This document shows, one piece after another, positions 25,101-40,867 of a stretch of 64,000 bases of DNA. Every line of letters begins with the position of its first letter. Within the stretch, counting starts at the first letter, position 1. The stretch spans positions 1 through 64,000 of the IMG/VR virus record IMGVR_UViG_3300035698_012962. The stretch is one strand, 5' to 3'. Source of the stretch: a virus. A model generated the notes under the pieces. That model searched no databases, was not told the origin of the DNA, and saw nothing but the letters and a program-made list of their open reading frames with translations. The position numbers were made by a program, and so were the translations under genes.

Positions 25101-25307
25101 TTATTTATTGTTTTTATCCGCAATTTTTTGCTTATATTTTGCTTCTTTTTTCTTTAATCTCTTTTCAGTAGATGGTTTTGTGAATTCTTGGTTGTTACGG
25201 AATTCATATAATATACCAGATGATTTGACCATCTTTGTGAAAATATTAATTGCCTTATCAACATTTCCCTTTCGTACCGTAACACCTATTCTATTTTTAT
25301 TTGCCAT
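25101..25307 (-). CDS. rpsU: Ribosomal protein bS21, 68 aa
   Basis: VRKGNVDKAINIFTKMVKSS is the bS21 start and EFTKPSTEKRLKKKEAKYKQ its basic C-terminal helix; the FTKPS-EKR phrase is of the Bacteroidota type. Length is normal for the family. In Bacteroidota ribosomes bS21 helps hide the anti-Shine-Dalgarno of 16S rRNA, so a phage copy could change which messages are initiated (known for the host family; inference for the phage). No ribosome-binding site precedes its ATG. It is the last gene of the unit that includes the prohead protease. Phage-encoded bS21 is known in other marine phages. Confidence 0.88.
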   Translation of the reverse strand: MANKNRIGVTVRKGNVDKAINIFTKMVKSSGILYEFRNNQEFTKPSTEKRLKKKEAKYKQKIADKNNK

Positions 25308-25333: not shown

Positions 25334-25732
25334 TTATTTCCCAATGGTAGTTGGTGGTTTAAATTCTTGTGCACTTTTTTTCATATACATTATGAATTTT
25401 TTTGGATCTGTAAATGATTTAAACAAACTACTACTATAAAATACTGCACCACTATAATAAACTTTACCGTTTCTATCCATAGTTCCAGTAGCTCTAACAA
25501 CTCCATTTTCAAACTCACCAGATAAATATATTTCTCGTTTTCCACCAAGAGCTGGCTTTTCCTCTATATCTGTAATCCATCTAACTTTAACCTTTTTTTT
25601 AGATAATTCTCTGATTACTTCTTTCTTAACTTTTGATAATGTATCTTTAATTTCATCTATATACGATTCGGATATTACATTAGAAATTTCTTCTTGTATA
25701 ATTTCTCGTAATTCTTTTTTAGTTATTTTCAT
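25334..25732 (-). CDS. Tagged internal-type protein, 132 aa
   Basis: Starts with the shared tag MKITKKELREIIQEEISNVI and a candidate cleavage site ISE at 20-22. The rest is basic and helical (KKEVIRELSKKKVKVRW), then a beta part with YLSGEFENGVVRATGTMDRN. Function unknown; the tag suggests packaging inside the capsid. It overlaps the next upstream gene by 4 bp. Confidence 0.65.
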   Translation of the reverse strand: MKITKKELREIIQEEISNVISESYIDEIKDTLSKVKKEVIRELSKKKVKVRWITDIEEKPALGGKREIYLSGEFENGVVRATGTMDRNGKVYYSGAVFYSSSLFKSFTDPKKFIMYMKKSAQEFKPPTTIGK

Positions 25733-26442
25733 TTTATTTTAGTATCATTATTATGAGTAAACTGTAATACAGTACCATCTTTGAAATAAATTTGTACGGT
25801 TCCATCATTTAAAATTGTAGACATTTTAACAGATTTGCCTTCTAATTTATGAATTTCTCCTTTTTTTAACGTTTCGTTTACATTCCCTAATCGTTGTCTC
25901 ATCACCTCTGGATCAATATCACTTATTTCATAATATCGGTTTAGAATCAAACCCATTTCTTCGTATAGTGCTTGCATCCTGGAATCTAATACTTTCGCAT
26001 CTTTTGCTACCTTATCAAATGAACCTTCCAATTTTTCCAATTGTTTCATGTTACGTTTAATAGTAACTTTATCGAACCAATCTTCTGCTTCATTCAATGT
26101 TAATTCTCTAGCCGCCTCTACAATACCACCAAGTGTTTCTGCAACTTCTATAATATCAGATGATCGCTTCATTTGAGAATTGTAAGTATTATAAGAAGAG
26201 ATAATTTCTAAGAAATGTTTTTTAACTTCAGTTGATAATGATTTTCTTTCTTCATTACCTCCGTTTTTTGATTCTTTAATACTGAATTTACCATCCTTAA
26301 TTTTTACTTCTTCTATTACAGTCTTACGGATATCATTATATCCTTTGAATGTCTTAGTTGCCTTTAAAATTGGTTTCGTTGATTTCATTGTAATTTTGTT
26401 ATTTGAAACAAAATCTGCAATATCAAATGGTTTATTTTTCAT
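25729..26442 (-). CDS. Internal-type protein with C-terminal LEGK domain, 237 aa
   Basis: No N-terminal tag (starts MKNKPFDIADFVSNNKITMK). The middle is a long helix (ILNRYYEISDIDPEVMRQRL). The last 50 residues, LKKGEIHKLEGKSVKMSTIL followed by NDGTVQIYFKDG, form a beta module almost the same as the end of the next gene (26447-27013). Function not known. Its place between protease and scaffold suggests a core or head-maturation protein. It overlaps the 25334-25732 gene by 4 bp. Confidence 0.62.
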   Translation of the reverse strand: MKNKPFDIADFVSNNKITMKSTKPILKATKTFKGYNDIRKTVIEEVKIKDGKFSIKESKNGGNEERKSLSTEVKKHFLEIISSYNTYNSQMKRSSDIIEVAETLGGIVEAARELTLNEAEDWFDKVTIKRNMKQLEKLEGSFDKVAKDAKVLDSRMQALYEEMGLILNRYYEISDIDPEVMRQRLGNVNETLKKGEIHKLEGKSVKMSTILNDGTVQIYFKDGTVLQFTHNNDTKIK

Positions 26443-26446
26443 AATT

Positions 26447-27013
26447 TTATTTTTTTATTTTAACATATTTATTATTCATAAATTCAATTGATGCACCATC
26501 TTTAAAATGAATTTGAATAGTTCCATCGTTTAATATAACAGAATATTTAACTTGCTTCCCTTCTAATGAATGTATTTCACCTTTTTTTAATTCTTCTTTG
26601 ATATTAATTGGTGAATTTTCTAATAATGTTTCAATTTTTTTACCTGCTGAATCATTAATTCTCATAGATGCTACATATGAAAATGCATTAATAATATCAA
26701 ACCCATCCCACTTAGCCCATTTAGCTATCATAATTCCTTTATCTTCTATTACACTTTCCAATTCCTTTGTATACGGAGATCCATCTTTACCAGATGGTCT
26801 ACTTGATCTAGGAAATAATTTATCTACTTTCTTAACTTCGCTATGAAAATTAGCATCAGTCAGAGCCCCTTTTAATATAGTTTTAAATACCCATTGATAT
26901 TCGGATAACCCTTTTGGTAAATTAATGTACCCATCGAAAAACTTTAATACTTTTTTATTTAACCGGGTATTTTCAGATTCTTTTAATAATTCTTTTAATT
27001 TTATTGATTTCAT
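26447..27013 (-). CDS. Tagged internal-type protein with LEGK domain, 188 aa
   Basis: A short tag MKSIKLKELLKES with an LKE site at 10-12. The C-terminal module LKKGEIHSLEGKQVKYSVIL and NDGTIQIHFKDG is a paralogue of the end of the preceding gene's product. The N-terminal half is unrelated to that neighbour, so the shared module was added to two different proteins. Unknown function; candidate packaged protein. Confidence 0.65.
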   Translation of the reverse strand: MKSIKLKELLKESENTRLNKKVLKFFDGYINLPKGLSEYQWVFKTILKGALTDANFHSEVKKVDKLFPRSSRPSGKDGSPYTKELESVIEDKGIMIAKWAKWDGFDIINAFSYVASMRINDSAGKKIETLLENSPINIKEELKKGEIHSLEGKQVKYSVILNDGTIQIHFKDGASIEFMNNKYVKIKK

Positions 27014-27027
27014 AGTTTTATATTATT

Positions 27028-27240
27028 TTAATTAAGGTCTGGCATATGTTTTCTTAATACAGATTCAATTACACGAGGTGGATTACTAAATGCCAATTCT
27101 CTAATCACAGATTCTAATGCTTTATCTTTAATACGTAAATCTCTAATCATTTTACTTAATATTTCTTCAGCTTTTGATTCTTGTAAAGTATGAAGTTCTT
27201 TACGAACGATTTCTCTTAGTTGTTTTTTAGTTATTTTCAT
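27028..27240 (-). CDS. Small tagged protein, 70 aa
   Basis: Starts MKITKKQLREIVRKELHTLQ with an LQE site at 19-21. The remaining 49 residues are two helices with SVIRELAFSNPPRVIESVLR. It overlaps the upstream gene by 4 bp. Short, basic and tagged, as would fit a DNA-associated internal protein. Not otherwise recognised. Confidence 0.65.
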   Translation of the reverse strand: MKITKKQLREIVRKELHTLQESKAEEILSKMIRDLRIKDKALESVIRELAFSNPPRVIESVLRKHMPDLN

Positions 27241-27992
27241 ATCACTGTTTCATTTTTAATTTTTAATTTCGGTGAAGTAACTTTAATCGTCATCCACATT
27301 CCAGTACCACCAACATATGTAACATCAAATAAATCATTATATTTATCATTTATAAATTTAGATAATCTGAACTTTTTATGTATATCACGTTTTAATTGTT
27401 TTATATATTTGTCAAAATCTTTCTTACGTTGTGATTTTGGTACATCTGTATCAATCCATCCTATATCAAATGTATGTATATAATATTCAGATCTTAGACC
27501 TAAATCCATATTAAAGAATTGTTCATATTTAGATTCTGTTTTTTCTAAATAATCAGTTTTTTTCAATTCTTTACCTACTGCGTTTTCAGTACTTAAATGT
27601 GGTAAATTATTTACAATATGATCTTCTACAAATTTTTCAATATTAGAAATTTGGTTTTTGTATTCTTTACCTGATACTCTATTTAATTCTATTTGATGTT
27701 TTTCTGATTCCGAAAAATCAACACGAAGATCTGTCCATTCATCAATAGTATCAATGGTTACCTTTATATCTTTATAATCACGTTCTAATTGCTTCTTTAA
27801 CCGTTGTGCTTCTTTATAATCTTCTTGTCCCGGTGTTTCATCACCTACAGATCCATTTTCACGTGTAACAAAATGAATTTGATGTTCGGATTTATCCGAT
27901 ACTTCAAAATATGAATTACGTTCTACGTATTGTTCAATATCATTAATTTCTTTAGAAAAGGTTTCAAATAATAAATCTATTAATTTTATCAT
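27237..27992 (-). CDS. Tagged hypothetical protein, 251 aa
   Basis: Short tag MIKLIDLLFETF with an LFE site at 8-10. The body alternates charged helices (EAQRLKKQLERDYKDIKVTI) and beta strands, ending YVGGTGMWMTIKVTSPKLKI. Charge is mixed and there is no membrane segment. Function unknown. It directly follows the prohead protease gene (3-bp gap). Confidence 0.62.
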   Translation of the reverse strand: MIKLIDLLFETFSKEINDIEQYVERNSYFEVSDKSEHQIHFVTRENGSVGDETPGQEDYKEAQRLKKQLERDYKDIKVTIDTIDEWTDLRVDFSESEKHQIELNRVSGKEYKNQISNIEKFVEDHIVNNLPHLSTENAVGKELKKTDYLEKTESKYEQFFNMDLGLRSEYYIHTFDIGWIDTDVPKSQRKKDFDKYIKQLKRDIHKKFRLSKFINDKYNDLFDVTYVGGTGMWMTIKVTSPKLKIKNETVI

Positions 27993-27995
27993 TTT

Positions 27996-28583
27996 TTATC
28001 CAAGTTCTGTTATGATTTCTCTCATTAAATGTTGTGCTCTACACCAATCACCACATACATCGGTTCCTATTTGTTTCATTATAGATTCGTTCATAGGTGA
28101 CATAAATGCTCCGTGAGTTGATGGGTTAGATACAAAATCCCAACCTATTAGTTCAAAATCTTCTCCAACTTTCACTTTGTTCTCACCTAATGGTGTCGTT
28201 GAACCCATACCTCTAGATGATATACCTAAAAGTATTTCTGCTCTAATCAATTCCTTTAGAATATTTCCTGAAGGAGTATTTAAAATTTCTACAGTTCCTA
28301 TTAAATCATCACCATCCCAGTGGATTTCTCTGATATTATGTGAAACATTTTTTAAGTTAATTACAGAAGAATCAGGGTGATCTAATTCACCTAACGCTCT
28401 TCGTTCTTTTATAAGAGTTTCGTATTTTTTACATTCTCTTTCCAGAATATTTCTTGGGTATATTCGTCCGTTCTGATTTTCTTTACCAGCTCTTTGTAAA
28501 ACACCTCGTACTAAAACTCGACCTGACGAATCTTCTTGTAATTTTCCTTCGAATAATTGTGTTTCAATTAATAGTTTTTTCAT
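27996..28583 (-). CDS. gp21: Prohead maturation protease, gp21-like, 195 aa
   Basis: A herpesvirus-type serine protease fold. Landmarks are RGVLQRAGKENQNGRIYPR, GELDHP with the catalytic His near 69, GISSRGMGS with the catalytic Ser near 123, and FELIGWDFVSNPSTHGAF. It is close to T4 gp21 in length (212 aa). In T4 it lies in the prohead core and cuts scaffold, capsid and internal proteins after (L/I)-x-E. Its place among twelve tagged genes fits that role. Its own N-terminus has LFE-GKLQE, a possible self-cleavage site. Confidence 0.9.
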   Translation of the reverse strand: MKKLLIETQLFEGKLQEDSSGRVLVRGVLQRAGKENQNGRIYPRNILERECKKYETLIKERRALGELDHPDSSVINLKNVSHNIREIHWDGDDLIGTVEILNTPSGNILKELIRAEILLGISSRGMGSTTPLGENKVKVGEDFELIGWDFVSNPSTHGAFMSPMNESIMKQIGTDVCGDWCRAQHLMREIITELG

Positions 28584-28623
28584 GATGTTAATTCTGTTTT
28601 AATTAAATTTGGTTCTAGTAGAT

Positions 28624-29856
28624 TCATTTTAAATTCCGTTTGATATACTCTCGTGCAGATTTTTCAGAAATAAACCAATATGTTGAAATATCCATCAATG
28701 TTTTCTTTCTCCATTTATTATCTTTATGGTGATACACCTTACCTTCAGCGTCTGAAATGTAATAATAAGTCTCAACTGCTCCCTTTCTCAACAGTTGGTT
28801 ACTGACAATCCAATAGTTTCCTTCTTTTGGCTCTTTTTTCAAGAAACTCCTTTCCTCATTTACTGATTCTGGTAATGGTCGACCTCTCTTTATATTATAA
28901 ACATATGAATCATATGCAGTTTTAATATCAATACTTTTTGAATTTTTTCTCCCATGTTTGAAATATCGGATTCTACTTGAGTATTTATCATATTTTGGTT
29001 TGTACACTGCATCCCGTTCACTCACATACGGACTGAAAACATCAGGTTTTTTTTTCTTAAATTCATCAAATGACATTGCACTAACTTCGTTTATTGATTC
29101 TATCATATAAGATGATGACCAATTAATTTGATCTATGATATCATCCATTGCGTCACCTCTACTATAATCTTCGATTTTCTCGTTTACATTTTGTTCGAAA
29201 AAATCTGCATCATACCAATCTTGAGCTCGATCATCATCGTTGAATTCCATACCTTTTAATACTGCCTTCATTTGGTCCTTGAATTTTTGATTATCCGTTT
29301 TTGTTTTCAGTTTATCTTTTTGATGTTTTAATTTCTTTAACTTTCTCATTTTGGTACGGTCAGCTTCAGTTAACGATTCGCTAAATTGAGTTACAATTTT
29401 CTTCTGAAATTTATTATTTGGTTTACCTGAAAGAGCAGTTGCAAAATCCATTCTGTCTTTTAGTGTACCTTTTCGTATATAATCAAAAAGTTTCTTTGAA
29501 TCTAAATTATGAGTATTGATAAATTTTTCAACTGCATCTGCGCGTGTACCAGAAAATCTTGCAATTCCTTGGGCATCTGAATTTATTGATTCACTTACGG
29601 CTCTTTTGGGATATGATTTACCAAATACTTTAAATTCATCTTCTACTGGAATATCTCCTTTTTGGTGATATTCATTTTTAGTCGACCATCCTTTGTCAAT
29701 AACATTAAAGAATTTCTTTTTGGTTTCATCATCCATATCAACGGGTGAATCAAATCCAAATTTATCCAATACCTTTTTGAAGAATACTTGATATTCAGAT
29801 TCTTCTTGTATTGTAGATTTAATAAGTTCTTTTAATTTTGATTTTGTAATTTTCAT
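28624..29856 (-). CDS. Tagged protein with several candidate internal cleavage sites, 410 aa
   Basis: Tag MKITKSKLKELIKSTIQEES with IQE at 16-18. Unusually, the short linker type ES-[LIV]-[TN]-E recurs inside: SLTE-A at about 164, SINE-VSAM at 257, LPE-SVNE at 330-334. Each lies between a helical and a beta region. These match the gp21 consensus, so the protein may be cut into four or more pieces in the prohead. The final segment, GNYWIVSNQLLRKGAVETYYYISDA, looks like a separate beta domain. Function of the pieces is unknown. Confidence 0.65.
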   Translation of the reverse strand: MKITKSKLKELIKSTIQEESEYQVFFKKVLDKFGFDSPVDMDDETKKKFFNVIDKGWSTKNEYHQKGDIPVEDEFKVFGKSYPKRAVSESINSDAQGIARFSGTRADAVEKFINTHNLDSKKLFDYIRKGTLKDRMDFATALSGKPNNKFQKKIVTQFSESLTEADRTKMRKLKKLKHQKDKLKTKTDNQKFKDQMKAVLKGMEFNDDDRAQDWYDADFFEQNVNEKIEDYSRGDAMDDIIDQINWSSSYMIESINEVSAMSFDEFKKKKPDVFSPYVSERDAVYKPKYDKYSSRIRYFKHGRKNSKSIDIKTAYDSYVYNIKRGRPLPESVNEERSFLKKEPKEGNYWIVSNQLLRKGAVETYYYISDAEGKVYHHKDNKWRKKTLMDISTYWFISEKSAREYIKRNLK

Positions 29857-29860
29857 ATTT

Positions 29861-30127
29861 TTACTTTTTTAAATACACCCAAAATTCCTTTGGATTTTGT
29901 AGTTTCGTAACTCCACTTTGTAAGATACCTTTAATAATTGTTCCTAATATTTCACCATCGGAATACTTATCATATGCACGTGAATCAACTCCCTTTCTAT
30001 TCTTTACATCGTCTACTAAATCTTTAAATGCTTTATCAAATTTTTTAACATTTGAAACTGCATCTTCATTAATATTTGATAATTCTTCTCTAATAATTTC
30101 TTGTAATTGTTTTTTTGTTAATTTCAT
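29861..30127 (-). CDS. Tagged small protein, 88 aa
   Basis: Tag MKLTKKQLQEIIREELSNIN with INE at 19-21, then a compact helical domain AFKDLVDDVKNRKGVD and TKLQNPKEFWVYLKK. The first 45 bases of the gene are identical to those of the next gene upstream. The two genes overlap by one base (TAATG type). Candidate packaged protein. Confidence 0.65.
   Translation of the reverse strand: MKLTKKQLQEIIREELSNINEDAVSNVKKFDKAFKDLVDDVKNRKGVDSRAYDKYSDGEILGTIIKGILQSGVTKLQNPKEFWVYLKK
30083..30127 (-). repeat. 45-bp tag-encoding repeat, copy 1
   Basis: Identical over 45 bases to 30376-30420. It encodes the first 15 residues of two adjacent proteins, which then diverge at once. Confidence 0.9.
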
Positions 30128-30420
30128 TATTTTATCATTCCTTTAAGTTCTGTTTTTATTCTTTTAGCAGTTTCACCTTTCCAAGTGTGTGCATTTGATA
30201 AGAAATATACTACAATAGATTTTGCACTATCCATAAGGTATTTATCATTAATAGATGTTAATGAATGCATTGCTTCCAAATATGGCTTGGCCGCGTAATT
30301 TACCTTTTTCCAATCTTTACTGATCTCATTTGCTATTACATATAAAGGCCTCTGACCTTCAGTTAATCGTTGGATTTCTTCTCTAATAATTTCTTGTAAT
30401 TGTTTTTTTGTTAATTTCAT
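30127..30420 (-). CDS. Tagged small protein, 97 aa
   Basis: Tag MKLTKKQLQEIIREEIQRLT with LTE at 19-21. The mature part, GQRPLYVIANEISKDW, followed by helices, is unrelated to the body of the 88-residue neighbour, although the tags are near identical. This means the tag was spread as a module. Unknown role. The ATG overlaps the upstream stop by 4 bases. Confidence 0.65.
   Translation of the reverse strand: MKLTKKQLQEIIREEIQRLTEGQRPLYVIANEISKDWKKVNYAAKPYLEAMHSLTSINDKYLMDSAKSIVVYFLSNAHTWKGETAKRIKTELKGMIK
30376..30420 (-). repeat. 45-bp tag-encoding repeat, copy 2
   Basis: Second copy of the tag-encoding block at 30083-30127, with no mismatch. Confidence 0.9.
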
Positions 30421-31427
30421 ACCATTTTATTTATTAATGTTGTAATAAATTCTGCACTTATTGATTTTTTCTTTACTTTCTTTTTCTTTCCACCTACTTC
30501 AATCTCTAATACAGCATTCCGTCTGTCCCACTTTAATACAACATCCTTGGGATGAACTTTTGTATTATTGATGATAGACTTAACCACAACTGCTGCGAAT
30601 GTGCCTTCAATCCCATCCCAATGTTTTACTTTTGTTCCTCTGTACTTTTGTGAGAATGATAGTAAATCATTTGGGGATACTTCAGTCAATGATTCTGTTA
30701 GAAATTCGTTATAAAGGGTTTCCATCTGTTTCATTAAATCTGGAAGTTGATCACCCAATGTTTTATACTTACGAATATTTAGCCCAACATCTCCTGATAT
30801 AAAATCAATTATTCTAACATTCTTAACATCATTACCATTACCCAATTTTTCTAAAAATGATTCTACTTTTTTAGAATCCCATTTTGCTTTAAGTAATTGA
30901 TGAATTGCTTTTCCGTATTTAGAATCTTCAAAAAAGTCAGTAGCTCTACGGGATGATTCATTCACTGATTCATTTATATCATCTAATGATGTGTCTAATG
31001 TTTGTAGCTTCCCTACTAATTTCACTACTCGTTCTTTTATTTTTTTAATATGACTTTGTGTCCGTTTCCAATAGGCATCTTTAGGTACTTCATTTTCCAT
31101 TCGGATTCTGTTGTACCAATTTAGAAATTTATCCATTTCTTGTAGTTCATATCGGATCTTACGAATTCCACAACCTATTTTTTGATTTGGAGTTGCTTCA
31201 CTATTTTTTAACTCTAACCATCGGTTTGTGTATTCTTCATTTACTCTTGTATATCCAGTAGACTTATTTAACCTATCTACATATTCATCATCAGTAGAAT
31301 CCCCTTTTGCAAAAGCGTGTGGAGTTTGATACCCTGCTACATTTCCCGTAGCGGACATTTCTTCCAATTCTTCTTCTTCTTCTTTTATTAATTCTCTAAT
31401 AAGTTTTCTTAATTGGGATTTTTTCAT
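30417..31427 (-). CDS. Tagged virion-type protein with several internal cleavage sites, 336 aa
   Basis: Tag MKKSQLRKLIRELIKEEEEE with sites IKE-16 and LEE-23. The segment MSATGNVAGYQTPHAFAKG that follows, and a helical domain NQKIGCGIRKIRYELQEMDK, are shared by hypothetical proteins near the portal in marine T4-like phages (from memory). Internal sites are INE-153 before SVNE, and LTE-245 and LTE-249 before VSPND. The C-terminal domain is basic and beta-type with GGKKKKVKKKS. It looks like a polyprotein in which each piece starts after an I/L-x-E site. Confidence 0.68.
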   Translation of the reverse strand: MKKSQLRKLIRELIKEEEEELEEMSATGNVAGYQTPHAFAKGDSTDDEYVDRLNKSTGYTRVNEEYTNRWLELKNSEATPNQKIGCGIRKIRYELQEMDKFLNWYNRIRMENEVPKDAYWKRTQSHIKKIKERVVKLVGKLQTLDTSLDDINESVNESSRRATDFFEDSKYGKAIHQLLKAKWDSKKVESFLEKLGNGNDVKNVRIIDFISGDVGLNIRKYKTLGDQLPDLMKQMETLYNEFLTESLTEVSPNDLLSFSQKYRGTKVKHWDGIEGTFAAVVVKSIINNTKVHPKDVVLKWDRRNAVLEIEVGGKKKKVKKKSISAEFITTLINKMV

Positions 31428-31429
31428 TA

Positions 31430-31777
31430 TTATTTCATTGCCTTAAATATTGGTTTTAGTAACTTAAAATAAGTTACTTCATCTTTTTTAACATCATATG
31501 ATGGTTTAAATCGTTTAGATGTTTGGTATATATAATCACCAGATCCTTTTTCTAATACATCAATTGGTAGATTTTCTTCACCTTCCCAAAATGGAGTAGC
31601 GTAAATAAGATGTTTTCCACTTACCCACATAAACGTTCCTGCCATTGCTTCGTAATCCGGTTGCCAACCATCTACTTTTTTATTTTTATATTTATTTCTT
31701 AAATGTGAAATGAATTCATATTGGTAATCATAATCTACAGATTCTTTTAGTAATGATTTTAATTTAATATTTTTCAT
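31430..31777 (-). CDS. Tagged hypothetical protein, 115 aa
   Basis: Short tag MKNIKLKSLLKES with LKE at 10-12, the same type as in the 188-residue protein. The mature part, YEAMAGTFMWVSGKHLIYAT and PFWEGEENLPIDV, is a small beta domain with an amphipathic end. Function unknown. It overlaps the upstream gene by 4 bp. Confidence 0.65.
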   Translation of the reverse strand: MKNIKLKSLLKESVDYDYQYEFISHLRNKYKNKKVDGWQPDYEAMAGTFMWVSGKHLIYATPFWEGEENLPIDVLEKGSGDYIYQTSKRFKPSYDVKKDEVTYFKLLKPIFKAMK

Positions 31778-32661
31778 AATTTTTTTAGTTTTTTCTTTAG
31801 TTCCTGAATCAACTCATAAGATATCATCATTGTAGATACATACTTATCAGGTATTCGTTGTTTTACTTTAAATCTTTCTAGTAGCTGAATGATTTCATCC
31901 AATTTAATAGATGTTACTTTATCTTTTACCTTTGGTGATATCTTTTTAAGTTCACCTAATACTTTCTTACGTTCAGTATCAATAAAAGTAGAAAAATCAT
32001 TTGTATTAGATATATTATTGATGTAGTTTTTTAATACCGATTTTTGGTCTGTATTTAGTGTATTGTACTTTTTATTAAAGTTTTCCACTAAAATTTTATA
32101 AGTAAGTAAACGTAAATCTTTTTCTTGTTCCTTATATTCTTTGAACATTATCTCATTTAACTTCTCTCCTTTATTTTGAATGGATGATGACATTACGTGT
32201 TCTACGATGGTATACTTCGAATTAAATATATCTTTGATATCATATCCAGATTCATGCTTAGCTTCAAACAATTTATATACAGATGCTAGTTCTTTATAGT
32301 TAGTTATATTAGATGAAAAGAATTTATCCGTATCGAATGATTCTTTTATTTTTTTAACCAACTCATACTTTTCTCTAGTAACTTTCTTTAAATCTACTTT
32401 ACGTAAATGTTCTTCGGTTACAAGATCAATAAACTTTTCAGCTCTGTTTTCAGAATTATACTTTTCATTCATCAATAGATGGTATAATTTAAGTTCCTTA
32501 GCCAATTCAGTTTTTGACCCAAAATGCTCTTGTAGAATAGATTGGGCGTTTTGGTCTTTATTATTAAGAATCTCTAATGTTATTTGTCGTACTAATAATT
32601 CAAATAAAATCCCAGTATTTTTGTACTTACTATGTTTTATTTGTGATTTACGGTTTTTCAT
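31774..32661 (-). CDS. Conserved head-region protein, 295 aa
   Basis: An all-helical, basic protein starting MKNRKSQIKHSKYKNTGILF and continuing ELLVRQITLEILNNK. This opening is shared by a protein near the portal of marine T4-like phages (recalled, not checked). It has no tag. It is the first gene of the unit that includes the protease, with a promoter variant 41 bp upstream. A role in the prohead core is likely from context only. Confidence 0.65.
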   Translation of the reverse strand: MKNRKSQIKHSKYKNTGILFELLVRQITLEILNNKDQNAQSILQEHFGSKTELAKELKLYHLLMNEKYNSENRAEKFIDLVTEEHLRKVDLKKVTREKYELVKKIKESFDTDKFFSSNITNYKELASVYKLFEAKHESGYDIKDIFNSKYTIVEHVMSSSIQNKGEKLNEIMFKEYKEQEKDLRLLTYKILVENFNKKYNTLNTDQKSVLKNYINNISNTNDFSTFIDTERKKVLGELKKISPKVKDKVTSIKLDEIIQLLERFKVKQRIPDKYVSTMMISYELIQELKKKLKKL

Positions 32662-32702
32662 ATTGTTGTTTATTAAATGTAAATAAAGAATATCCTATAC
32701 AG

Positions 32703-32712
32703 TATAAATATA
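32703..32712 (-). promoter_or_regulatory. Phage promoter motif, variant (TATATTTATA)
   Basis: CTTATATTTATAC on the coding strand, one base from consensus, 41 bp upstream of the ATG at 32661. It lies in the 80-bp gap after the portal gene. Confidence 0.55.
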
Positions 32713-32741
32713 AGATAAAATTAGTTTTCATATTATTTTCT

Positions 32742-35570
32742 TTAAGTTATAATATCTTTGCTCTTTTTCTTCATATTTTTAGCCACTCTCAATGAAGAAA
32801 GTTTATCCTTTTTACTGTAACCCTCTGTTTCTCTGTTTCTTGGTTTTTCATTTTCTTTATTTCCTAATGGATCTCTTCCATATGCGTGATCATCTCTACC
32901 ATAATTTCCACCTTCTTTTGGTCTACCCCCTTTATTGGAAAATTCACTTTTTATATTTTCCAATTCACCTTCAACATCAACGGGGTCGGGTTGTTCAGCT
33001 GGGTCTTCACCTAATGTAGAAATTTGCTCATGTCTAAATTGATCTTTTAAATCTTGGATAATTTTAACTTTTTGTTTATCTTTCTCTTCTTCAGATAGAT
33101 TAAACACTTTTTCATAAATATAATCAGTTGAAAACATCTTCAGTCGTTTCATATCATCTGCCAGTCTTACTTTTTCAGACCATAAATTTATTTTCTCTTG
33201 TTCATAAATGGTAGATGGGTTTGTCAATTTCAATTCAAAATTAGTAATATCTCTCTCTGGTACACCTATTGAATATAAATGTAGAATAGCGATCTTAGTT
33301 AATTCAGATACAACGATTCTCTGAATTCTTTCAATAGTTCTTGCAAATCGAACATCTTCTGCGGCGATCGTAGCTTTACCCGAGTTATGTATAATAACAC
33401 CAGCATCTGTACCAAAGTTATGATATTTTGCTATACGAACATCACACGTATCAATACGTTCATTTAATATCTCAACCGATTTAACCTTATGATTTTTAAA
33501 ATTATTTATAAAACCTTTATTATTCTGTGATAAAGGCATATGTTCCATTATAAAATCAAGTTTATCTATTTTATGAAAATTAAAAATTCTATTTAAAGTA
33601 TTTCTATCTACATTTAATTTATTTTCAAGTTCCTTAAATGATTTTGAAAGTGTCGCATATTTTACAATAGTTCCTAATTCAAATTTGTCATATTTTGTAT
33701 TATATAATTCTAAATCTTCATCAGTATAACAACAATTATTACTACAATATAATTGATCACTACTACTTGTTATATAAATTTCATTATCACAATTGACATT
33801 TTTACATTTTATATATTCACCAGTTCTGGTTCCTTTGTTCCATGGACCATTAGTTTGTACCCATTCTCCTAATTTTTTAGATGATTTTATTCCTCCAATT
33901 CTACCGTTTTTTGATTGGTTTTCTAAAAACGTATCACTGTTTCTATACAGTTCCATTGCTAACGAATTATTTCCTTCTCTAGCCAATTGAATATGATAAT
34001 TTCTATGTTCATTCCAATCCATAGAACAATCAAAATTATCAGGATTATTATTCCATTTATTTAAATCAATGTGGTGTATGACTTTTCCCTTCTTCCGTTT
34101 ATTAAAATATTCTGCGACAAGTTGATGAACTAGTTTATATTTATTATCAGATGGATTATAAACAGTAGTATAATCTTTAATAAATTTATTGTCACTTCTA
34201 TCTAAATATAGTGGCATAAGAGAATCATCTTTTTTTAGTTCTATTGCGTCTACCCATTCACCATCTCTCTTTAAAAACTTATGATCAGGTGTACAAGTTA
34301 TAAACTTATCATTATCTAACCATACTTTAACAACTTTAGCATCTTTTCTTGTCATACCTGCCCATTCTAATTTACCAGGTACAATATTATTTGTTTCTTC
34401 ATCCAATGAATAAACATAATGTTGAATTCCATTTTCAAAATCTTCTATAATCTCTTCTGCTGTTTTAGTTTCACCAGACAGTAAAGGAATTTTTGTGTCA
34501 GGTGATATACATACGTCTTCCTCGTATCCTAAATACGCTTTTGGAATTTTCAATGCAGCAAATAACTTAGCTTTAAGATAATCAATATCCTCAATCGCGT
34601 TATATTCTAAACCTGGTAATGAATCAATCTTAGTTCCACTATCAGATCCCCTAACTGGAAGAAAGAAATCTTCAGTTAGATTTTGCATATTATATTTTAA
34701 GTTGTAATCTCCAGATTTTTTATCTAAAAATGGAATTTTCTTCATCTTATTAATAATCTTCTGCATGTAATTATCAATCTCATTTGGATTGACATTACCG
34801 ATATCAATAGAAAAGATTCTCTTCTCTGGAGCTCTCATTATTCTATGGATTAACATAGCATCTTCCATTAATGTTAATTGTTTCCACAATCTTCTTGCGT
34901 TTTCAATCATTGCTTTACCATAAGGAAGGAAGTTAGTATCTGAAAGTAAACGAAAATGAGCCATTTCGTAATTTTCATATTCACTCTTTATTGTATTCTC
35001 TACTTTAAATTTAACATAGTTCGGATTTTCAGGATCAGTATCCTCTAATCGTTCTACATTATAAACAGAAAGTGGTTGTACATTTACAACTCCGGCGCCT
35101 TCTGCCATTTCTAATGAAAGATAAAAATCACCATACTTTGATAAATTGCGAACCCAAGGCCAAATGTTGAATTCAATATTTAATATGTCATAAAATAGAT
35201 TCTCTAAATTTTCCCGTATTGTTTGATTTGGGGATTTGATTGTTAATACGTCACCAAATTCAGATTGTAATGTAGATTCATCTGCATATATATCTAATGC
35301 AGAACTGATAATAGCATCCATATCCATACTATCATAATCTCTAAATAATTCTCTACGTATTTGTTGATATGCTAATGAATTATTTTGCCCCAGTTGATCA
35401 TAGAATGATTTTTGTAATCTTGAATATCTATCAGTAGATGAACGTAAATTTGTAATTTGCCGTTTATCCAAATCAGTTACATTACGTTTACCATCCGCAT
35501 CAACTGTTATAATCGTTTGTGTTGAAAATAATTTCTTTAACCTATCAAAAAATGATTTGTTATCTGCCAT
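32742..35570 (-). CDS. gp20: Portal protein, gp20-like, interrupted by an in-frame intein, 942 aa precursor
   Basis: The exteins are residues 1-353 and 730-942. Portal landmarks include FRDYDSMDMDAIISSALDIY, ALKIPKAYLGYEEDV before the insertion, and SGKATIAAEDVRFARTIERIQRIV after it. Joined, they make 566 aa, close to T4 gp20 (524 aa), with the highly conserved phrase GYEEDV-SGKATIAAEDVRF restored. Residues 354-729 are the intein described separately. In T4 the portal dodecamer nucleates the prohead and passes DNA. Splicing is needed for a functional portal, so the intein is likely active. Confidence 0.92.
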   Translation of the reverse strand: MADNKSFFDRLKKLFSTQTIITVDADGKRNVTDLDKRQITNLRSSTDRYSRLQKSFYDQLGQNNSLAYQQIRRELFRDYDSMDMDAIISSALDIYADESTLQSEFGDVLTIKSPNQTIRENLENLFYDILNIEFNIWPWVRNLSKYGDFYLSLEMAEGAGVVNVQPLSVYNVERLEDTDPENPNYVKFKVENTIKSEYENYEMAHFRLLSDTNFLPYGKAMIENARRLWKQLTLMEDAMLIHRIMRAPEKRIFSIDIGNVNPNEIDNYMQKIINKMKKIPFLDKKSGDYNLKYNMQNLTEDFFLPVRGSDSGTKIDSLPGLEYNAIEDIDYLKAKLFAALKIPKAYLGYEEDVCISPDTKIPLLSGETKTAEEIIEDFENGIQHYVYSLDEETNNIVPGKLEWAGMTRKDAKVVKVWLDNDKFITCTPDHKFLKRDGEWVDAIELKKDDSLMPLYLDRSDNKFIKDYTTVYNPSDNKYKLVHQLVAEYFNKRKKGKVIHHIDLNKWNNNPDNFDCSMDWNEHRNYHIQLAREGNNSLAMELYRNSDTFLENQSKNGRIGGIKSSKKLGEWVQTNGPWNKGTRTGEYIKCKNVNCDNEIYITSSSDQLYCSNNCCYTDEDLELYNTKYDKFELGTIVKYATLSKSFKELENKLNVDRNTLNRIFNFHKIDKLDFIMEHMPLSQNNKGFINNFKNHKVKSVEILNERIDTCDVRIAKYHNFGTDAGVIIHNSGKATIAAEDVRFARTIERIQRIVVSELTKIAILHLYSIGVPERDITNFELKLTNPSTIYEQEKINLWSEKVRLADDMKRLKMFSTDYIYEKVFNLSEEEKDKQKVKIIQDLKDQFRHEQISTLGEDPAEQPDPVDVEGELENIKSEFSNKGGRPKEGGNYGRDDHAYGRDPLGNKENEKPRNRETEGYSKKDKLSSLRVAKNMKKKSKDIIT
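33384..34511 (-). other. HNH intein in the portal gene, 376 aa
   Basis: Boundaries are sharp: Cys-354 opens block A (CISPDTKIPLLSG), TPDH at 427-430 is block B, and VRIAKYHNFGTDAGVIIHN ends at Asn-729, followed by Ser-730 as the +1 nucleophile. An HNH homing nuclease is inserted (VHQLVAEYFN at 481-490, IHHIDLN at 498-504, NNNPDNF) and a Cys-rich knuckle follows (CKNVNC...CSNNCC, 589-614). All residues needed for splicing (Cys1, His-Asn end, Ser+1) are present. Confidence 0.92.
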
Positions 35571-35579
35571 AATTTATAA

Positions 35580-36107
35580 TTATATATTTTTTCTATTTTT
35601 CCAAAAATTGGTTGCATCCTTTGATTGAGGACTTGCAGGTTTGAACTTTTTCTTAAAGTATCGCTCTGCTAAATTATACATCTCCGTTGCTACTTTTTGT
35701 CGTCTATATGTTGGGTGAACTTGTACAGCTCCTTCTAATTCAGTATCACTAATTCCACTCCATTTGGCAATATCTAAATCACCTGCATATAATCCTGATG
35801 GAATATGGAAGGAAGTTACTGCTCCATAAAAATCATCATCTGACTTATTTCTATCTGTTAATATAAACTCAAAATCTTTTTTCTTAACTTTCTTTAATAC
35901 CTTTTCTTTTTTTAATTGAGTTCTGTAATATTCAGTAATTTTATCATGATCAATATTATCAAATTTACCAGTTTCAAATAAAATATCCATTAACTTAGGG
36001 CTTTCATTTGTTGGAAGAAACGCATTATGAAATGGATTAGAGTATACTCTTCCCAAATCGAATGTTTGATTTCCTATTTTAACTGTTTTAATATTAGGTG
36101 GTCTCAT
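35580..36107 (-). CDS. GNAT-type acetyltransferase-like protein, 175 aa
   Basis: The C-terminal third has VQVHPTYRRQKVATEMYNLA, the GNAT motif A that binds acetyl-CoA (V-x-P-x-YR-x-x-x-VA-x-x-M-x), ending in FKPASPQSKDATNFWKNR. Inside the N-terminal part, PKLMDILFETGKFD (residues 37-50) resembles the short tags, although it is not at the start. It begins directly at the end of the 129-residue gene. It is next to the portal gene, so it may modify a head protein, but the target is unknown. Confidence 0.6.
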   Translation of the reverse strand: MRPPNIKTVKIGNQTFDLGRVYSNPFHNAFLPTNESPKLMDILFETGKFDNIDHDKITEYYRTQLKKEKVLKKVKKKDFEFILTDRNKSDDDFYGAVTSFHIPSGLYAGDLDIAKWSGISDTELEGAVQVHPTYRRQKVATEMYNLAERYFKKKFKPASPQSKDATNFWKNRKNI

Positions 36108-36497
36108 TTATATTAATTTACTTTGTAATTTATTTAGTTTATCTTGTTCCCGCTTTGTTTGTGTCAATACTTTGTTCATTTCAGTTCCGATTCGATCTGC
36201 AATCGGCCCACCCTCGATTTCAGCAGTTTGTTCCATTTCGAAATTCAAGTCGTGAAATTGGTTTTTTAAATCACTTATCTTTTCTTCAACATCAGCTATT
36301 TGTCCTAATAACTTATAATATTGTGATGGAGTTAATCTTCTTGTTTTCGTTTGTGGTGGATCGGTCTTCTTTTTCATTGATCTAGTAGTAGAATCTCTCC
36401 ACTTATTAGCTAATACTGGAGGTAATGGGGCGTAAGAAACTTCATTGATTTTTTTAATTTCTTCTCGTATAATTTGAATTAATTCTGATTTTTTCAT
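36108..36497 (-). CDS. Tagged helical protein, 129 aa
   Basis: Tag MKKSELIQIIREEIKKINEV with INE at 17-19. The mature part starts SYAPLPPVLANKW, followed by a long coiled coil (YYKLLGQIADVEEKISDLK, LTQTKREQDKLNKLQSKL). Coiled-coil dimer or trimer is likely; function unknown. It overlaps the HAD gene by 4 bp and precedes the GNAT gene. Confidence 0.65.
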   Translation of the reverse strand: MKKSELIQIIREEIKKINEVSYAPLPPVLANKWRDSTTRSMKKKTDPPQTKTRRLTPSQYYKLLGQIADVEEKISDLKNQFHDLNFEMEQTAEIEGGPIADRIGTEMNKVLTQTKREQDKLNKLQSKLI

Positions 36498-37003
36498 AAT
36501 CCTAATTGTTTTAATTGTTTTATTGTATCAGATGCGGATTTATGTAAAATTCCAATTCCATCTTTTAATCTCCAATCTTTGATGTTTGATTCTCTATCAT
36601 CTATAAGAATTGATGTAGGTGTAGCCCATTTCTTTTTTTCAAATGAACGTGCTAAAATTAATGGAGTATTTGATAATTCACGTTTCACCCATATCTTTTT
36701 TCCTTCTGCTGATGTCTTTTCTTTTGAAGGCGAAGATAAAAGTGTAGGATTATATTTTTTAATATAGTTCCATAATTTTTTGCCATCTGGCATCCATTCC
36801 ATATTAGCCCACCAATCTTTCCCAGCATCTGAAATGGGTTTCCAAAAATCTGGCTTAGAAAGTTTATCAGTTGCAATATGGGATTTCGTACCTGTCAATT
36901 CATAATATGCTTTGTCAAAATCCGTGAGACATCCGTCCATGTCTTGATAAATATTATATTTAATATTTTTATTTTCACTAATCAAATCTCTTAATCTTAT
37001 CAT
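36494..37003 (-). CDS. Tagged HAD-type phosphatase, 169 aa
   Basis: Tag MIRLRDLISEN with ISE at 8-10; the enzyme starts right after it. Motif I DMDGCLTDFD (21-30) holds the nucleophile Asp and the acid Asp; LLSSPSKEK holds the motif II Ser; SILIDDRESNIKDW (about 131-144) is motif IV. The pattern is of the 5'(3')-nucleotidase type used by phages. The tag would place the phosphatase inside the capsid. Directly follows the promoter motif at 37056 as first gene of the portal unit. Confidence 0.75.
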   Translation of the reverse strand: MIRLRDLISENKNIKYNIYQDMDGCLTDFDKAYYELTGTKSHIATDKLSKPDFWKPISDAGKDWWANMEWMPDGKKLWNYIKKYNPTLLSSPSKEKTSAEGKKIWVKRELSNTPLILARSFEKKKWATPTSILIDDRESNIKDWRLKDGIGILHKSASDTIKQLKQLGL

Positions 37004-37055
37004 TTTTAAATATAATCTGTTTATTAAACCACATGAATGGTTTGATTTATATAAC

Positions 37056-37065
37056 TATAAGTATA
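37056..37065 (-). promoter_or_regulatory. Phage promoter motif (TATACTTATA)
   Basis: Exact decamer on the coding strand, 52 bp upstream of the ATG at 37003, in the gap after the terminase gene. Confidence 0.6.
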
Positions 37066-37089
37066 GGTTTTGAATAAAAAAGAAATTAT

Positions 37090-38691
37090 TTAGAATAACC
37101 AACGTATATCTTCTTCATCATCTTCACCAACTCTCATTGTATATGGATTTTCTCTTACATCAGTTCCACCATAAATACCTGGGTTAAACTCTGTTGTCTG
37201 TGTAGTAATAGAATCTAATGATGATTTTATCAAATCCTGCCCTTCTTGTCGTAAACGAAGTGCCGTATCCCTTACCCATAAACCTATAGCTAATGGGATT
37301 ACTAAATCATCATTGTAACCTTTCATTGCCTCAGCGCGTGATGTTTTCCATATGAATGTGAATAATTCATCTATTGTTCTTCTAGATTGGATTATAACTG
37401 ATTTTTCTCTGAAATATGCATCCAGTTTTGATATGATAAGTGGTCTTGTTCTTGCAGTTGTAGAAAACCCTGCAACCATTTTTCTCTCTTCTCTGTAATA
37501 CTTATTATGTAATTGTCGTTGTGTATCTACATATTTTAGATCTTTGGACATATAGAAAAGATTTGGATAATCCCTATCTATAATTTGTTGTATGGTTGCC
37601 CAACCCACATTAGCATTTTCAACTACTAATAATGCATTATTATATTCTGTTGATATAGAAACTAAGAAATTACCGAAATCTTTCGTATTCATCATTCCTT
37701 TATATTCTGCAACTTGTGTAACTGTTTCTAAATCTATCACATGGAATGCGGAGTAATCTGCACCATCTCCCCTAGACACATCAGCTATTACCATATATGA
37801 TTTATTATAATCAGGATATTCCCATATCCACAAATTCCCATCTATACCACGTTTTTCTATTGGATCTTTTACATACGTATCCATATAAAATTGAAGAATT
37901 TGCGCATCAATTACTGATTGTCCAGATGAAATAAACGAACAATCACATTCTTGAGCCGCTTTTTTATGTCCAAGTAAATTATCTTGCTCATCTCTCCATT
38001 CTTGACCACGTTCAGGATGAAGTGTCCAATGTAATTTAATTGGATTGAACGGATTAGAACCCTCTTCTGCACCGACCCATAATTGATGAAATGTATTACC
38101 AACACCATTTGGTGTAGAAAGAATTATTGCTCCACCACCAGTTGATAATGTAGATTGTGCGGATGTCCAAATTTCTTCAGCGTGTTCTACGAATGCTGCT
38201 TCATCAATAATAAGAAGAGAAAGTGCCTCAGATCTACCTGCATCTGGAGAAGATGAAATAGCTTTAATATGAGAACCATTTGATAATTTAAGTGAAAGTT
38301 TGTTATCTTCTAAAGAACCTTCCTTTAACCACGATGGTAAGTTCTCATACATTAAACGTACCTTTGTAATCAAATTCTTTGCTACATCTTGTTTAATAGC
38401 GATTACCAAAATATTAAAATCTTCTTGAAATAATAATTTCCATAATGAATAAGCCGCAACAAGTGTGGAAATTCCCATCTGTCTTGCTTTCAATATAATA
38501 TTATATCTATTTTCTACTAATTGCTCAATGGTTGATTCCTGAAATGGGTATAGATGAAATCCTATCCTTCCCCTCGTAGGATGTTGAATCTTACAGTACT
38601 TCTTCATAAAGTGAATATAATCTGTGGCGCATAATTTATATTCACTAGCTATGATTTCTTTAAGGGATTTTGTGGATTTTGTGTTTTGCAT
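37090..38691 (-). CDS. gp17: Large terminase subunit, gp17-like, 533 aa
   Basis: ATPase: KARQMGIST (68-76) is the Walker A of the terminase family; LLIIDEAAF (159-167) is Walker B with catalytic Glu; the coupling motif LSTPNG follows. Nuclease: VIADVSRGDGADYSAFHVID (first Asp near 304), VVENANVGW and NDDLVIPLA supply the RNase H-like acidic residues. It packages DNA through the portal. I chose ATG 38691, which follows the upstream stop by one base; an in-frame upstream start would run into the previous gene and add 14 residues without similarity. The small subunit is not identified with certainty. Confidence 0.93.
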   Translation of the reverse strand: MQNTKSTKSLKEIIASEYKLCATDYIHFMKKYCKIQHPTRGRIGFHLYPFQESTIEQLVENRYNIILKARQMGISTLVAAYSLWKLLFQEDFNILVIAIKQDVAKNLITKVRLMYENLPSWLKEGSLEDNKLSLKLSNGSHIKAISSSPDAGRSEALSLLIIDEAAFVEHAEEIWTSAQSTLSTGGGAIILSTPNGVGNTFHQLWVGAEEGSNPFNPIKLHWTLHPERGQEWRDEQDNLLGHKKAAQECDCSFISSGQSVIDAQILQFYMDTYVKDPIEKRGIDGNLWIWEYPDYNKSYMVIADVSRGDGADYSAFHVIDLETVTQVAEYKGMMNTKDFGNFLVSISTEYNNALLVVENANVGWATIQQIIDRDYPNLFYMSKDLKYVDTQRQLHNKYYREERKMVAGFSTTARTRPLIISKLDAYFREKSVIIQSRRTIDELFTFIWKTSRAEAMKGYNDDLVIPLAIGLWVRDTALRLRQEGQDLIKSSLDSITTQTTEFNPGIYGGTDVRENPYTMRVGEDDEEDIRWLF

Positions 38692-38692
38692 T

Positions 38693-39487
38693 TTATTTAA
38701 TTCGTAGTATATTGTATGTAACTCCCATACCAAATATAGCTATACTGTTTAATTCATAGTCCCAACCTACTCCAATAAAAGGTCCAAATACTAATCTAAC
38801 CTTATCCTTTGCAGGGCTTCTTGTAAAGAACGATGGATCTACTATAGCCGCATTTAAATTATTGAATCGTATATTTGGATATGAGGATTCTACATACGCT
38901 CTTAACATTCCATCATCTGTTTGTCTGAAACCTGTTGTAATGTTTATAGATAGAACATCTCTAGTGATACTTGTGTTTACATTCTTAACTTCTTCTAAAG
39001 ATACTATTTCAAATCTACTAACACCCTCTAACAATCTATTGCCCCAATGACCTTCTTCAGAATGTGACCAAGATAATTGAAAACGGCTGTCACCTAAAAA
39101 TTCACTTTCTGTATCTACATATATTGTATCCCTTTCCACTACTGTTTCTATAATAGTTACTGTGATAGGATCATTTTCCAATTGTTTTATTTTTTCTCCA
39201 AGTTCTTTATTAACTTCACTTAATCTTCTTTTATCTACTTGTAACGCTCCTTTTTCGCTCAATATAGCCCCATAATCAGTCCGTACGGTACGTAATGTAT
39301 CTGTTAATGCTATCTCATTACTTTGTGCTATGTGTTCCCTCTGCTCCAACTCAGCTATCTTATTATGTTGATAAAATAGACCAGCACCCATCAGTACGAT
39401 TCCGATAATACCAGCATATATCATATTTTGTTGTGTAAAAATTGTTTTTACAAAAGCAAAAAGCGATTCAATTCCTAATATTCCCAT
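38693..39487 (-). CDS. Membrane-anchored coiled-coil protein, 264 aa
   Basis: An N-terminal membrane segment (QNMIYAGIIGIVLMGAGLFY, 20-39) is followed by a coiled coil (about 45-105) and then ERDTIYVDTESEF. The C-terminal half is beta-rich, ending in FGPFIGVGWDYE and GVTYNILRI, as in outer-membrane-associated domains. This arrangement, membrane anchor plus coil plus distal beta domain, resembles a spanin-like lysis protein of Bacteroidota phages, but no lysin or holin is next to it. Placement directly before the terminase gene. Function is a guess. Confidence 0.55.
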   Translation of the reverse strand: MGILGIESLFAFVKTIFTQQNMIYAGIIGIVLMGAGLFYQHNKIAELEQREHIAQSNEIALTDTLRTVRTDYGAILSEKGALQVDKRRLSEVNKELGEKIKQLENDPITVTIIETVVERDTIYVDTESEFLGDSRFQLSWSHSEEGHWGNRLLEGVSRFEIVSLEEVKNVNTSITRDVLSINITTGFRQTDDGMLRAYVESSYPNIRFNNLNAAIVDPSFFTRSPAKDKVRLVFGPFIGVGWDYELNSIAIFGMGVTYNILRIK

Positions 39488-40186
39488 TTATATTCCCATT
39501 AATAATTCATTTACCAATTGATAGTTTTTATCTTTTAGTGTATGTATATAACTATTACGTTTTTCAATTATCTCATTTAATTTATCTTTCGTATTATCTA
39601 TATCTTTTTGGATGTCGATTTTTACATCATCTACAGATTTTTCAAGTTCCCATTTTGTAACCTTTCCATCCGCATCTACAAATTCCACAACTTCATCTAC
39701 TTCATCCATTGCTTGATTAAGATTATCCATAAACGATACACCATCTTTATATAATTGATGGAATAATTTTAATTTAGAGTAATCTTCCCAATCACCGTTA
39801 ATACGAATTTCAATTTCTAGTTCAGCTAAGCAATCAGTACAGTATCCAGCTTGTTTTATTAATTGTTGATCCGTATATCCATATTTTTTCTTTTTACAAT
39901 CACCTTTACAATTATATTCTAATGACTTACGCACGGATTGAAAAGTTTCTGTGTTTTTAGATTTCTTTATCTTATAACCTGATTTCTGTACCCATACATT
40001 TCCTTTATCATCTTCCCATTCATCACCCATTTCTCTATCTGTTGTTTTCTTTTCTTCTGGAGAGGATATAACTGTATTTTTATCATAACCTTTATTATTA
40101 AGAACCATATCTACAAGTTTACGGTTTTTTGGGTGCATATATTTCTTTTGAAACTTGTATTCTTTATTGTTTTTTTGTTCACTCAT
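39488..40186 (-). CDS. Conserved hypothetical protein with Cys cluster, 232 aa
   Basis: N-terminal basic part, then EMGDEWEDDKGNVWVQKSGY, a phrase I recall from proteins near the terminase of marine T4-like phages. Cysteines at CKGDCKKKKYG and YCTDC could bind zinc. The C-terminal half is a long coiled coil (VDDVKIDIQKDIDNTKDKLN). A small terminase (gp16) role is possible from position and the coiled coil, but is not shown. Confidence 0.6.
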   Translation of the reverse strand: MSEQKNNKEYKFQKKYMHPKNRKLVDMVLNNKGYDKNTVISSPEEKKTTDREMGDEWEDDKGNVWVQKSGYKIKKSKNTETFQSVRKSLEYNCKGDCKKKKYGYTDQQLIKQAGYCTDCLAELEIEIRINGDWEDYSKLKLFHQLYKDGVSFMDNLNQAMDEVDEVVEFVDADGKVTKWELEKSVDDVKIDIQKDIDNTKDKLNEIIEKRNSYIHTLKDKNYQLVNELLMGI

Positions 40187-40201
40187 ATTGTATAACTTAT
40201 A

Positions 40202-40867
40202 TTATTCAAATTTTAATGTGCCATCTTCTTGGCGAATTGCTCTTACTTTATTATGATACTTATTTCCATTTCTGCCCATCCAGTGATACTTCTCCTTTGA
40301 TATATCAAGCGAATCGGCTTTTGGAAAATCAGTTTGTTGGTAACCTGATAACGATGGTATATTTAATTCTCTTTGTTTTCCTGGTACAGTCCATCTTGCA
40401 GAGTTATTACCACCTGATAACCCATCAATATCTGCACCCTCTTTTAACATAACATTAGAATAGAATTCTTCAGTTGAATGTACATTTATCGGAATGGTTG
40501 TTGAATCACCTACCTTTTTAACCATTATTTCTAAATTACCAATAGTTCCTTTAATATCATCTACTATATACTTATAACCTTTTTTTATTTTCCCAAAAGT
40601 ATTATTAGCCACAAATTTAAAACCTTTCTTCAATCTAAATGGTGAAAATTCTCCTAATACTACCTCTGTTATATTTTCATCTTTTTCATCTTTAGCCATT
40701 CTGAATGTAACTACCTTTCTTCCATTTATAGTGGGCATCCCATGTTCATCATTACTAATAGTTTTAACCACCGTTTTTTTATTTTTAAATCTTCCTGTTA
40801 AAATAGTATCACCTATTTTTACTGGGATTACTATATTCTCTGGTAATAAGTTTATTAATCGTATCAT
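40202..40867 (-). CDS. Tagged hypothetical protein, 221 aa
   Basis: Short tag MIRLINLLPEN with LPE at 8-10. The body has several beta strands, VPVKIGDTILTGRFKNKKTV and FKFVANNTFGKIKKGYKYIV, as in a small barrel, then a linker ending LKEGADIDGLSGGNNSA. Not recognised. It lies three bases behind the ParB/CCA fusion, in the same unit. Confidence 0.62.
   Translation of the reverse strand: MIRLINLLPENIVIPVKIGDTILTGRFKNKKTVVKTISNDEHGMPTINGRKVVTFRMAKDEKDENITEVVLGEFSPFRLKKGFKFVANNTFGKIKKGYKYIVDDIKGTIGNLEIMVKKVGDSTTIPINVHSTEEFYSNVMLKEGADIDGLSGGNNSARWTVPGKQRELNIPSLSGYQQTDFPKADSLDISKEKYHWMGRNGNKYHNKVRAIRQEDGTLKFE

Follow-up and report, generated by a model that had tools for sequence, protein, structure and literature searches.

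The first 64,000 bases of the 136,266-base virus record IMGVR_UViG_3300035698_012962 (IMG/VR), from an uncultured T4-like phage and here called the window, contain a cluster of head genes in which twelve proteins begin with a short N-terminal tag of one of two types; the rest of the record was read as well. The twelve genes had been listed in an earlier note on this DNA, and all of them are present as open reading frames (ORFs) on the minus strand, with ATG starts at 25732, 27013, 27240, 27992, 29856, 30127, 30420, 31427, 31777, 36497, 37003 and 40867. As the same note had claimed, every tag (12/12) ends in [I/L]-x-E, with the sites at residues 10-23. In what follows, a slash marks the predicted cut, and the residue number of the glutamate that precedes it is given in brackets.

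The long tags open the proteins encoded at 25334..25732 (MKITKKELREIIQEEISNVISE/S, E22; mature length 110 amino acids, aa), 27028..27240 (MKITKKQLREIVRKELHTLQE/S, E21; mature 49 aa), 28624..29856 (MKITKSKLKELIKSTIQE/E, E18; 410 aa, with an EYQVFFKKVL module after the tag), 29861..30127 (MKLTKKQLQEIIREELSNINE/D, E21; mature 67 aa), 30127..30420 (MKLTKKQLQEIIREEIQRLTE/G, E21) and 36108..36497 (MKKSELIQIIREEIKKINE/V, E19; mature 110 aa). The body of the protein at 30127..30420 is phrog_13953, and this match begins at residue 20, leaving the tag outside. Short tags are found at 26447..27013 (MKSIKLKELLKE/S, E12), 27237..27992 (MIKLIDLLFE/T, E10; 251 aa), 31430..31777 (MKNIKLKSLLKE/S, E12; mature 103 aa), 36494..37003 (MIRLRDLISE/N, E10) and 40202..40867 (MIRLINLLPE/N, E10; mature 211 aa), while the 336-aa protein at 30417..31427 carries MKKSQLRKLIRELIKEEEEELEE/M (E23) followed by SATGNVAGY. 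The product of 36494..37003 is a 5'(3')-deoxyribonucleotidase-like HAD enzyme that matches phrog_2643 from residue 12 (E=9.5e-24). Pfam and PHROGs return a clear family only for this nucleotidase and for phrog_13953, most of the tagged proteins giving empty searches, and relatives of the protein at 27237..27992 were sought in named phages and none was found.

The genes among which the tags lie are also on the minus strand. A gp21-type prohead protease of 195 aa (Peptidase_S77; 27996..28583) is identified by Pfam PF03420 (E=4.4e-28, domain 28086-28526), by the motifs GELDHP and GISSR and by tblastn matches that are annotated prohead proteases; its N-terminus contains LFE/G and LQE/D. The major capsid protein, of the gp23 type (22045..23688; phrog_138, E=3.8e-72), has a propeptide site LLDE61/A, and the probable scaffold (23718..24884), which has no match in a PHROG search, is proposed from its gp22 position and acidic composition and is rich in gp21 motifs. 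Two further proteins carry an internal site. In the core-like protein at 25729..26442, GKFSIKE57/S separates an FDI..NDIRKT module from an EVKKHFLE domain, and the tagged protein at 26447..27013 has a C-terminal stretch of 51 aa in common with it (65%). The GNAT-like protein at 35580..36107 (Acetyltransf_1, E=0.004, below the Pfam cut-off) combines an internal tag-like LMDILFE45/T with a VYSNPxxxAF module that recurs in other proteins.

The cut motif is concentrated in the tagged set. Indeed, 12/12 tagged proteins have an [IL]xE whose glutamate lies at residue 8-24, against 3/8 other ORFs of the region and 30/166 ORFs elsewhere in the record. A T4-register pattern modelled on the tag of T4 IPIII (phi-x-x-phi-[ILVM]-x-E, with E at residue 8-14) matches 10/20 head-cluster ORFs (shuffles 0.35) vs 3/166 outside (shuffles 1.6; Fisher 4e-9), which bears out the claimed clustering with gp21, portal and terminase. 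The IPIII register itself (hydrophobic at 4, 7 and 8, E at 10) is exact in the proteins starting at 27992, 37003 and 40867, and seven others keep its spacing with the glutamate displaced to E12 or E14. Applied to T4, the pattern gives nine matches (shuffles 3.5), including IPII, IPIII and gp24, the last being annotated as gp21-cut; gp61.1 (18966-19130, MKTFKEFIKE/D) and gp2 (76061-76885, MAIFQIINE/S) of T4 also match. The twelve bodies show no mutual similarity at E<0.01, and the conserved tag positions show synonymous codon variation between tags. The amphipathicity of the long tags exceeds that of most N-termini, with a moment of 0.27-0.50 vs a genome mean of 0.22. Outside the window and far from the head cluster, an 84-aa protein (112380-112634) begins with the short-tag-like MKLTNLIPE/T and may be an extra cargo or a chance match.

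The tags behave as modules. The initial 45 nucleotides of the genes starting at 30127 and 30420 are identical while their bodies are unrelated, which suggests that the tag alone was copied recently between them. The EYxxFF module has a long tag here (28624..29856); in Vibrio phage Va1 it has a T4-style tag (MKQTFREFLNE/K), and in Tenacibaculum phage pT24, where it is part of a protein of 936 residues, it has an internal GINE/S. Similarly, the EVKKHFLE domain is fused in most relatives after a GKFS[IL]xE/[SN] junction and is elsewhere a gene of its own starting with MKLTQLLKE/NE; [IL]xE/[SN] is present in 27/27 distinct junctions, 25 of them at the same place and two as LQE/N a few residues later. 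A tag is also present on the HAD nucleotidase of the window, of a related contig (L127) and of Flavobacterium phage immuto; this protein has SINE/E in Melnitz and is untagged, with the enzyme starting from the first residue, in Cr30 (where it adjoins ribonucleotide reductase), Atu_ph07 and XacN1. Judged from these sequences, one module may thus carry a long tag, a short or T4-style tag or an internal cut site. An AlphaFold model of the HAD protein built from four sequences (pLDDT 61.5, tag region <50) and a fold search of the PDB with that model, which gave weak HAD-like matches, were set aside as evidence. Directly upstream of the tagged nucleotidase of L127 lies a tagged P-loop protein (L127:2038-2850; MESTIHEILKQLIREELGLLRE/SNFG...GGPSGAGKST).

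Since the T4-register pattern was composed with the sequences of the window and T4 already in view, held-out relatives provide a fair test. In four held-out related viral contigs, it matches 20/102 ORFs within 13 kb of gp21 vs 8/394 farther away (p=2.7e-9). Across 80 loci collected by gp21 similarity, tags are found on head-cluster cargo families; they occur in none of the portal, major capsid and neck families and in 3/38 distinct N-termini of terminase, and they are essentially absent from the spanin and tail families of the relatives. A small family close to the neck genes (MNIKTLKNIMKE/V) does have the pattern. The capsid-protein site reads LLDE/[AS] without exception across 18 distinct relatives, which supports the cut consensus for this protease lineage. 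Of 25 distinct relatives of the protein at 30417..31427, nearly all have [ILVM]-x-E immediately ahead of a conserved motif, TGxVxGY. In the family of the window, the TGNVAGY protein and the major capsid protein both have LDE/AT-TG around the site, as if one mimicked the other. Among the relatives, large proteins of 639-1225 aa (L062:381-3197, G005:38739-42176, L007:10209-12128) begin with a tag like MNELSQFLVESILGE/A, after which comes an NMNAT-like GRFQPxxxGH domain, in agreement with the NMNATs reported from cyanophage virions. A distal nuclease-like gene (VLIIDGLNTFIRSW; G001:173365-174411 and G004:7204-8247) has the T4-style tag MKDLYKNILNE/V and lies away from gp21.

To follow the long tag across viral metagenomes, 2.9 million viral contigs were scanned with a degenerate DNA pattern that encodes M-K-[ILFM]-T-K-x-x-L-x-x-I-I-x-E-E, with nothing fixed past residue 15; the long-tag proteins of other contigs provide a second independent test. 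More than 119 stretches contain the pattern, and its reversed-codon-order control gave no match in these contigs. The 121 matches collected are located at the beginning of ORFs, with several frequently in a row, and 104 long-tag bodies fall into 97 unrelated groups. Positions 7, 9, 10 and 13 are conserved although the pattern left them free. Moreover, [ILMV]-x-E is present at residues 17-24 in 79/110 long-tag proteins vs 26.7 (standard deviation 4.3) in shuffled sequences, with a peak at 21-22, and in 8-14% in windows further downstream. This peak, located where the search fixed nothing, is the cleanest confirmation of the predicted cut site. An S77 protease is encoded in 24/35 long-tag contigs examined and in 12/13 of those of at least 100 kb, both counts covering long-tag contigs alone. 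The earlier note had expected a tag search to lead back to gp21, and this holds in contigs of 100-210 kb, where 22/33 long tags lie within 20 kb of gp21 vs 8.4 under uniform placement, and fails in two jumbo contigs considered below. In 84,980 prokaryote genomes the long tag is found in just 11 stretches, and a bacterial origin of the tag was rejected on this count; the many-tag contigs belong to two genomes, both with an S77 protease, and are most likely misbinned phage contigs. Pfam matched two of 69 long-tag cargo proteins, so that nearly all of this cargo is unexplored. A tblastn search with a composed 22-residue consensus long tag returned one uncultured phage at E=2 and no cultured long-tag phage, and no mention of the tag letters was found in open PMC text, a search that leaves supplements and subscription papers outside.

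Evidence from virions comes from cyanophage S-CREM2, whose published virion proteome comprises 52 proteins with coordinates (PMC10665884). The comparison covered the N-termini of 82 coding sequences (CDSs), in two stretches, of 221 annotated features. The strict pattern matches the SAM hydrolase (MKDFDSFLEE), ORF13 (MKDLHSFLTE), the APH/ChoK kinase (MKRFDAFLTE) and NMNAT (MKNFSSFLTE), that is 4/25 virion CDSs vs 0/57 others (p=0.007). ORF136 (MQTFSMFFSE) matches once F is allowed at P3, giving 5/25 vs 0/57 (p=0.002). All five T4-style-tagged proteins among the 82 CDSs are thus detected in virions, and none of them is of the long-tag type. A word search of the S-CREM2 paper finds no mention of capsid targeting, internal proteins or targeting sequence (PMC10665884). 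The S-CREM2 virion protein ORF160 repeats the sequence GFTGAAAPxGPxAG[YF]DP, which is also present just past the likely cut site of the capsid protein (ORF145 and ORF160 correspond to L269 18481-19851 and 28342-29235).

Alternatively, the tagged proteins could be parts of the prohead core that help to form the scaffold and are afterwards degraded or expelled, with no delivery to the host, an explanation that we consider unlikely. It is in keeping with the position of the genes around gp21, portal and scaffold, as for T4 gp67 and gp68, and with the small size and lysine- and glutamate-rich composition of several tagged proteins; the TGNVAGY and EYxxFF families, conserved in many relatives, may also be assembly parts. 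However, the gp22-like scaffold family contains 15.3 [IL]xE[ASG] per 1000 aa vs 6.1 in shuffled sequences, whereas the long-tag bodies contain 1.6 vs 2.7 shuffled and the twelve tagged bodies of the window have a cut-motif density at chance level. This low density fits cargo that survives maturation. Furthermore, there are enzymes among the tagged proteins (the HAD nucleotidase here and NMNAT-like nucleotidylyltransferases in relatives), and tagged enzymes are detected in S-CREM2 virions.

It is much less probable that the tag addresses a target other than the prohead, such as a membrane, the nucleoid, a degradation system or a phage compartment, with [IL]xE being incidental. The amphipathicity of the long tag and the scattering of tags away from gp21 in jumbo contigs would suit such a target, but the site has a conserved position, the tags are exchanged with T4-style tags on homologous modules, the S77 protease accompanies them and the capsid-protein site has the same consensus. 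Least credible of all is that the shared N-termini reflect chance, or a bias of translation initiation or codon use towards AAA-rich starts (the genome is AT-rich, and many of its genes begin with ATG-AAA), which was rejected because the shuffled and reversed-codon controls stay at background, the pattern is missing from other late genes of the same genome, conserved positions vary synonymously, free positions 7, 9, 10 and 13 are conserved and [ILMV]xE recurs at 21-22.

Collectively, these data indicate that the tags are very probably capsid-targeting propeptides of the T4 kind, expanded and diversified. The packaged-cargo system that the earlier note had proposed is thereby supported by clustering, unrelated bodies, tag exchange, site conservation and the S-CREM2 virions, and packaging and clipping of the tagged proteins, as we infer them, are strongly supported. 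During head assembly the tag, probably an amphipathic helix, would dock its protein onto the prohead core. Given the conserved site and the gp21 gene, gp21 would then cut after [I/L]-x-E, freeing the mature protein inside the head and gaining space for DNA. The motif densities suggest that the tagged bodies would be kept as cargo, unlike the chopped scaffold. By analogy with T4 IPI and Alt, some or all of the cargo probably enters the host with the DNA, where its targets would be nucleotides, NAD, tRNA, proteins or defences. A broader proposal, which we favour with less assurance, is that the lysine-rich M-K-[IL]-T-K-x-x-L-x-x-I-I-x-E-E...[IL]-x-E/ serves uncultured T4-like phages as a general and transferable address code, by which very many small proteins and enzymes, most of them unknown, would be directed to the head and delivered at infection.

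Several points weigh against this interpretation. In the jumbo contigs G019 and G025, 13-14 long tags lie at a distance from gp21, and the site is missing from 31/110 long-tag proteins. At P1', the predicted residues (S, N, T, D, G, E, V, M) are more varied than in the E/A bond that is best established for T4. The admission of F at P3 was decided post hoc, the proteome comparison spans 82/221 annotated features, and the S-CREM2 authors state that co-purification cannot be excluded (PMC10665884). The virion evidence comes from S-CREM2 and its T4-style tags, and some tagged proteins may be structural parts of the core.

Other features of the region stand apart from the tags. The portal gene (32742-35570) encodes 942 aa, while the median of its relatives is 585, and an internal block, CISPDTKIPLL...HNSG, looks like a candidate intein. 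At 25101-25307, a small bS21-resembling protein (MANKNRIGVTVRKGNVDKAINIF...) adjoins the scaffold and capsid genes; in Mel-JY01 a protein annotated as S21 has the same neighbourhood.

Injected proteins are known for few phages, and the internal proteins of T4 include anti-restriction factors. A sequence code for packaged proteins would allow injected effectors to be listed from metagenomes, culture-free, and if the address-code reading is true, a whole class of injected phage effectors is readable directly from such data. The tags also offer a simple reason for the presence of NMNAT, SAM hydrolase and kinase proteins in cyanophage virions, and the short tags are candidates for loading proteins into heads.

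Among known systems, the closest is that of T4, whose propeptides have 10-19 residues; in IPIII, targeting depends on residues 4 and 7 and processing on residues 8 and 10 (PMC9026906). The initial ten residues of IPIII are enough for packaging, and IPI, once injected, blocks a restriction enzyme (PMC9026906, PMC3012670). As for T4 IPI, IPII, IPIII and Alt, there is a short N-terminal propeptide, an S77 protease and one tag type on unrelated bodies, and several short tags are likewise hydrophobic at 4, 7 and 8 with E at 10. Unlike T4, which has three internal proteins and Alt, the window has at least 12 tagged genes in one 15 kb cluster, a second, lysine-rich tag type of 18-23 residues, cargo enzymes and internal sites in fused proteins. 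In phiKZ and SPN3US, head and ejection proteins also have N-terminal propeptides that the prohead protease removes after glutamate, with identical N-termini on diverged proteins (PMC5694885), but several of these propeptides exceed 100 residues and the motifs are of the AxE/SxE type. Cyanophage virions contain the non-structural enzymes NMNAT, SAM hydrolase and APH/ChoK kinase (PMC10665884, PMC9602691); in S-CREM2 these have T4-style tags, and the long lysine-rich tag is not found in the stretches examined. Polyvalent proteins are multidomain phage proteins (GNAT, ParB-like and nucleic-acid domains) for which packaging and injection have been predicted (Iyer et al. 2017, PMC5512222). The 729-aa CCA-adding-enzyme-like protein at 40871-43060 (PolyA_pol, E=6e-32; ParBc_2, E=0.007, below the cut-off) resembles them, without an N-terminal tag, whereas the tagged proteins here mostly consist of one small domain; an 81-aa ORF at 49217-49462 repeats the N-terminal segment of this protein and is an apparent partial duplicate. 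The mechanism belongs with T4 capsid targeting, and what is new is its scale, the second tag type on about 100 unrelated bodies of uncultured phages and the internal-site variants.

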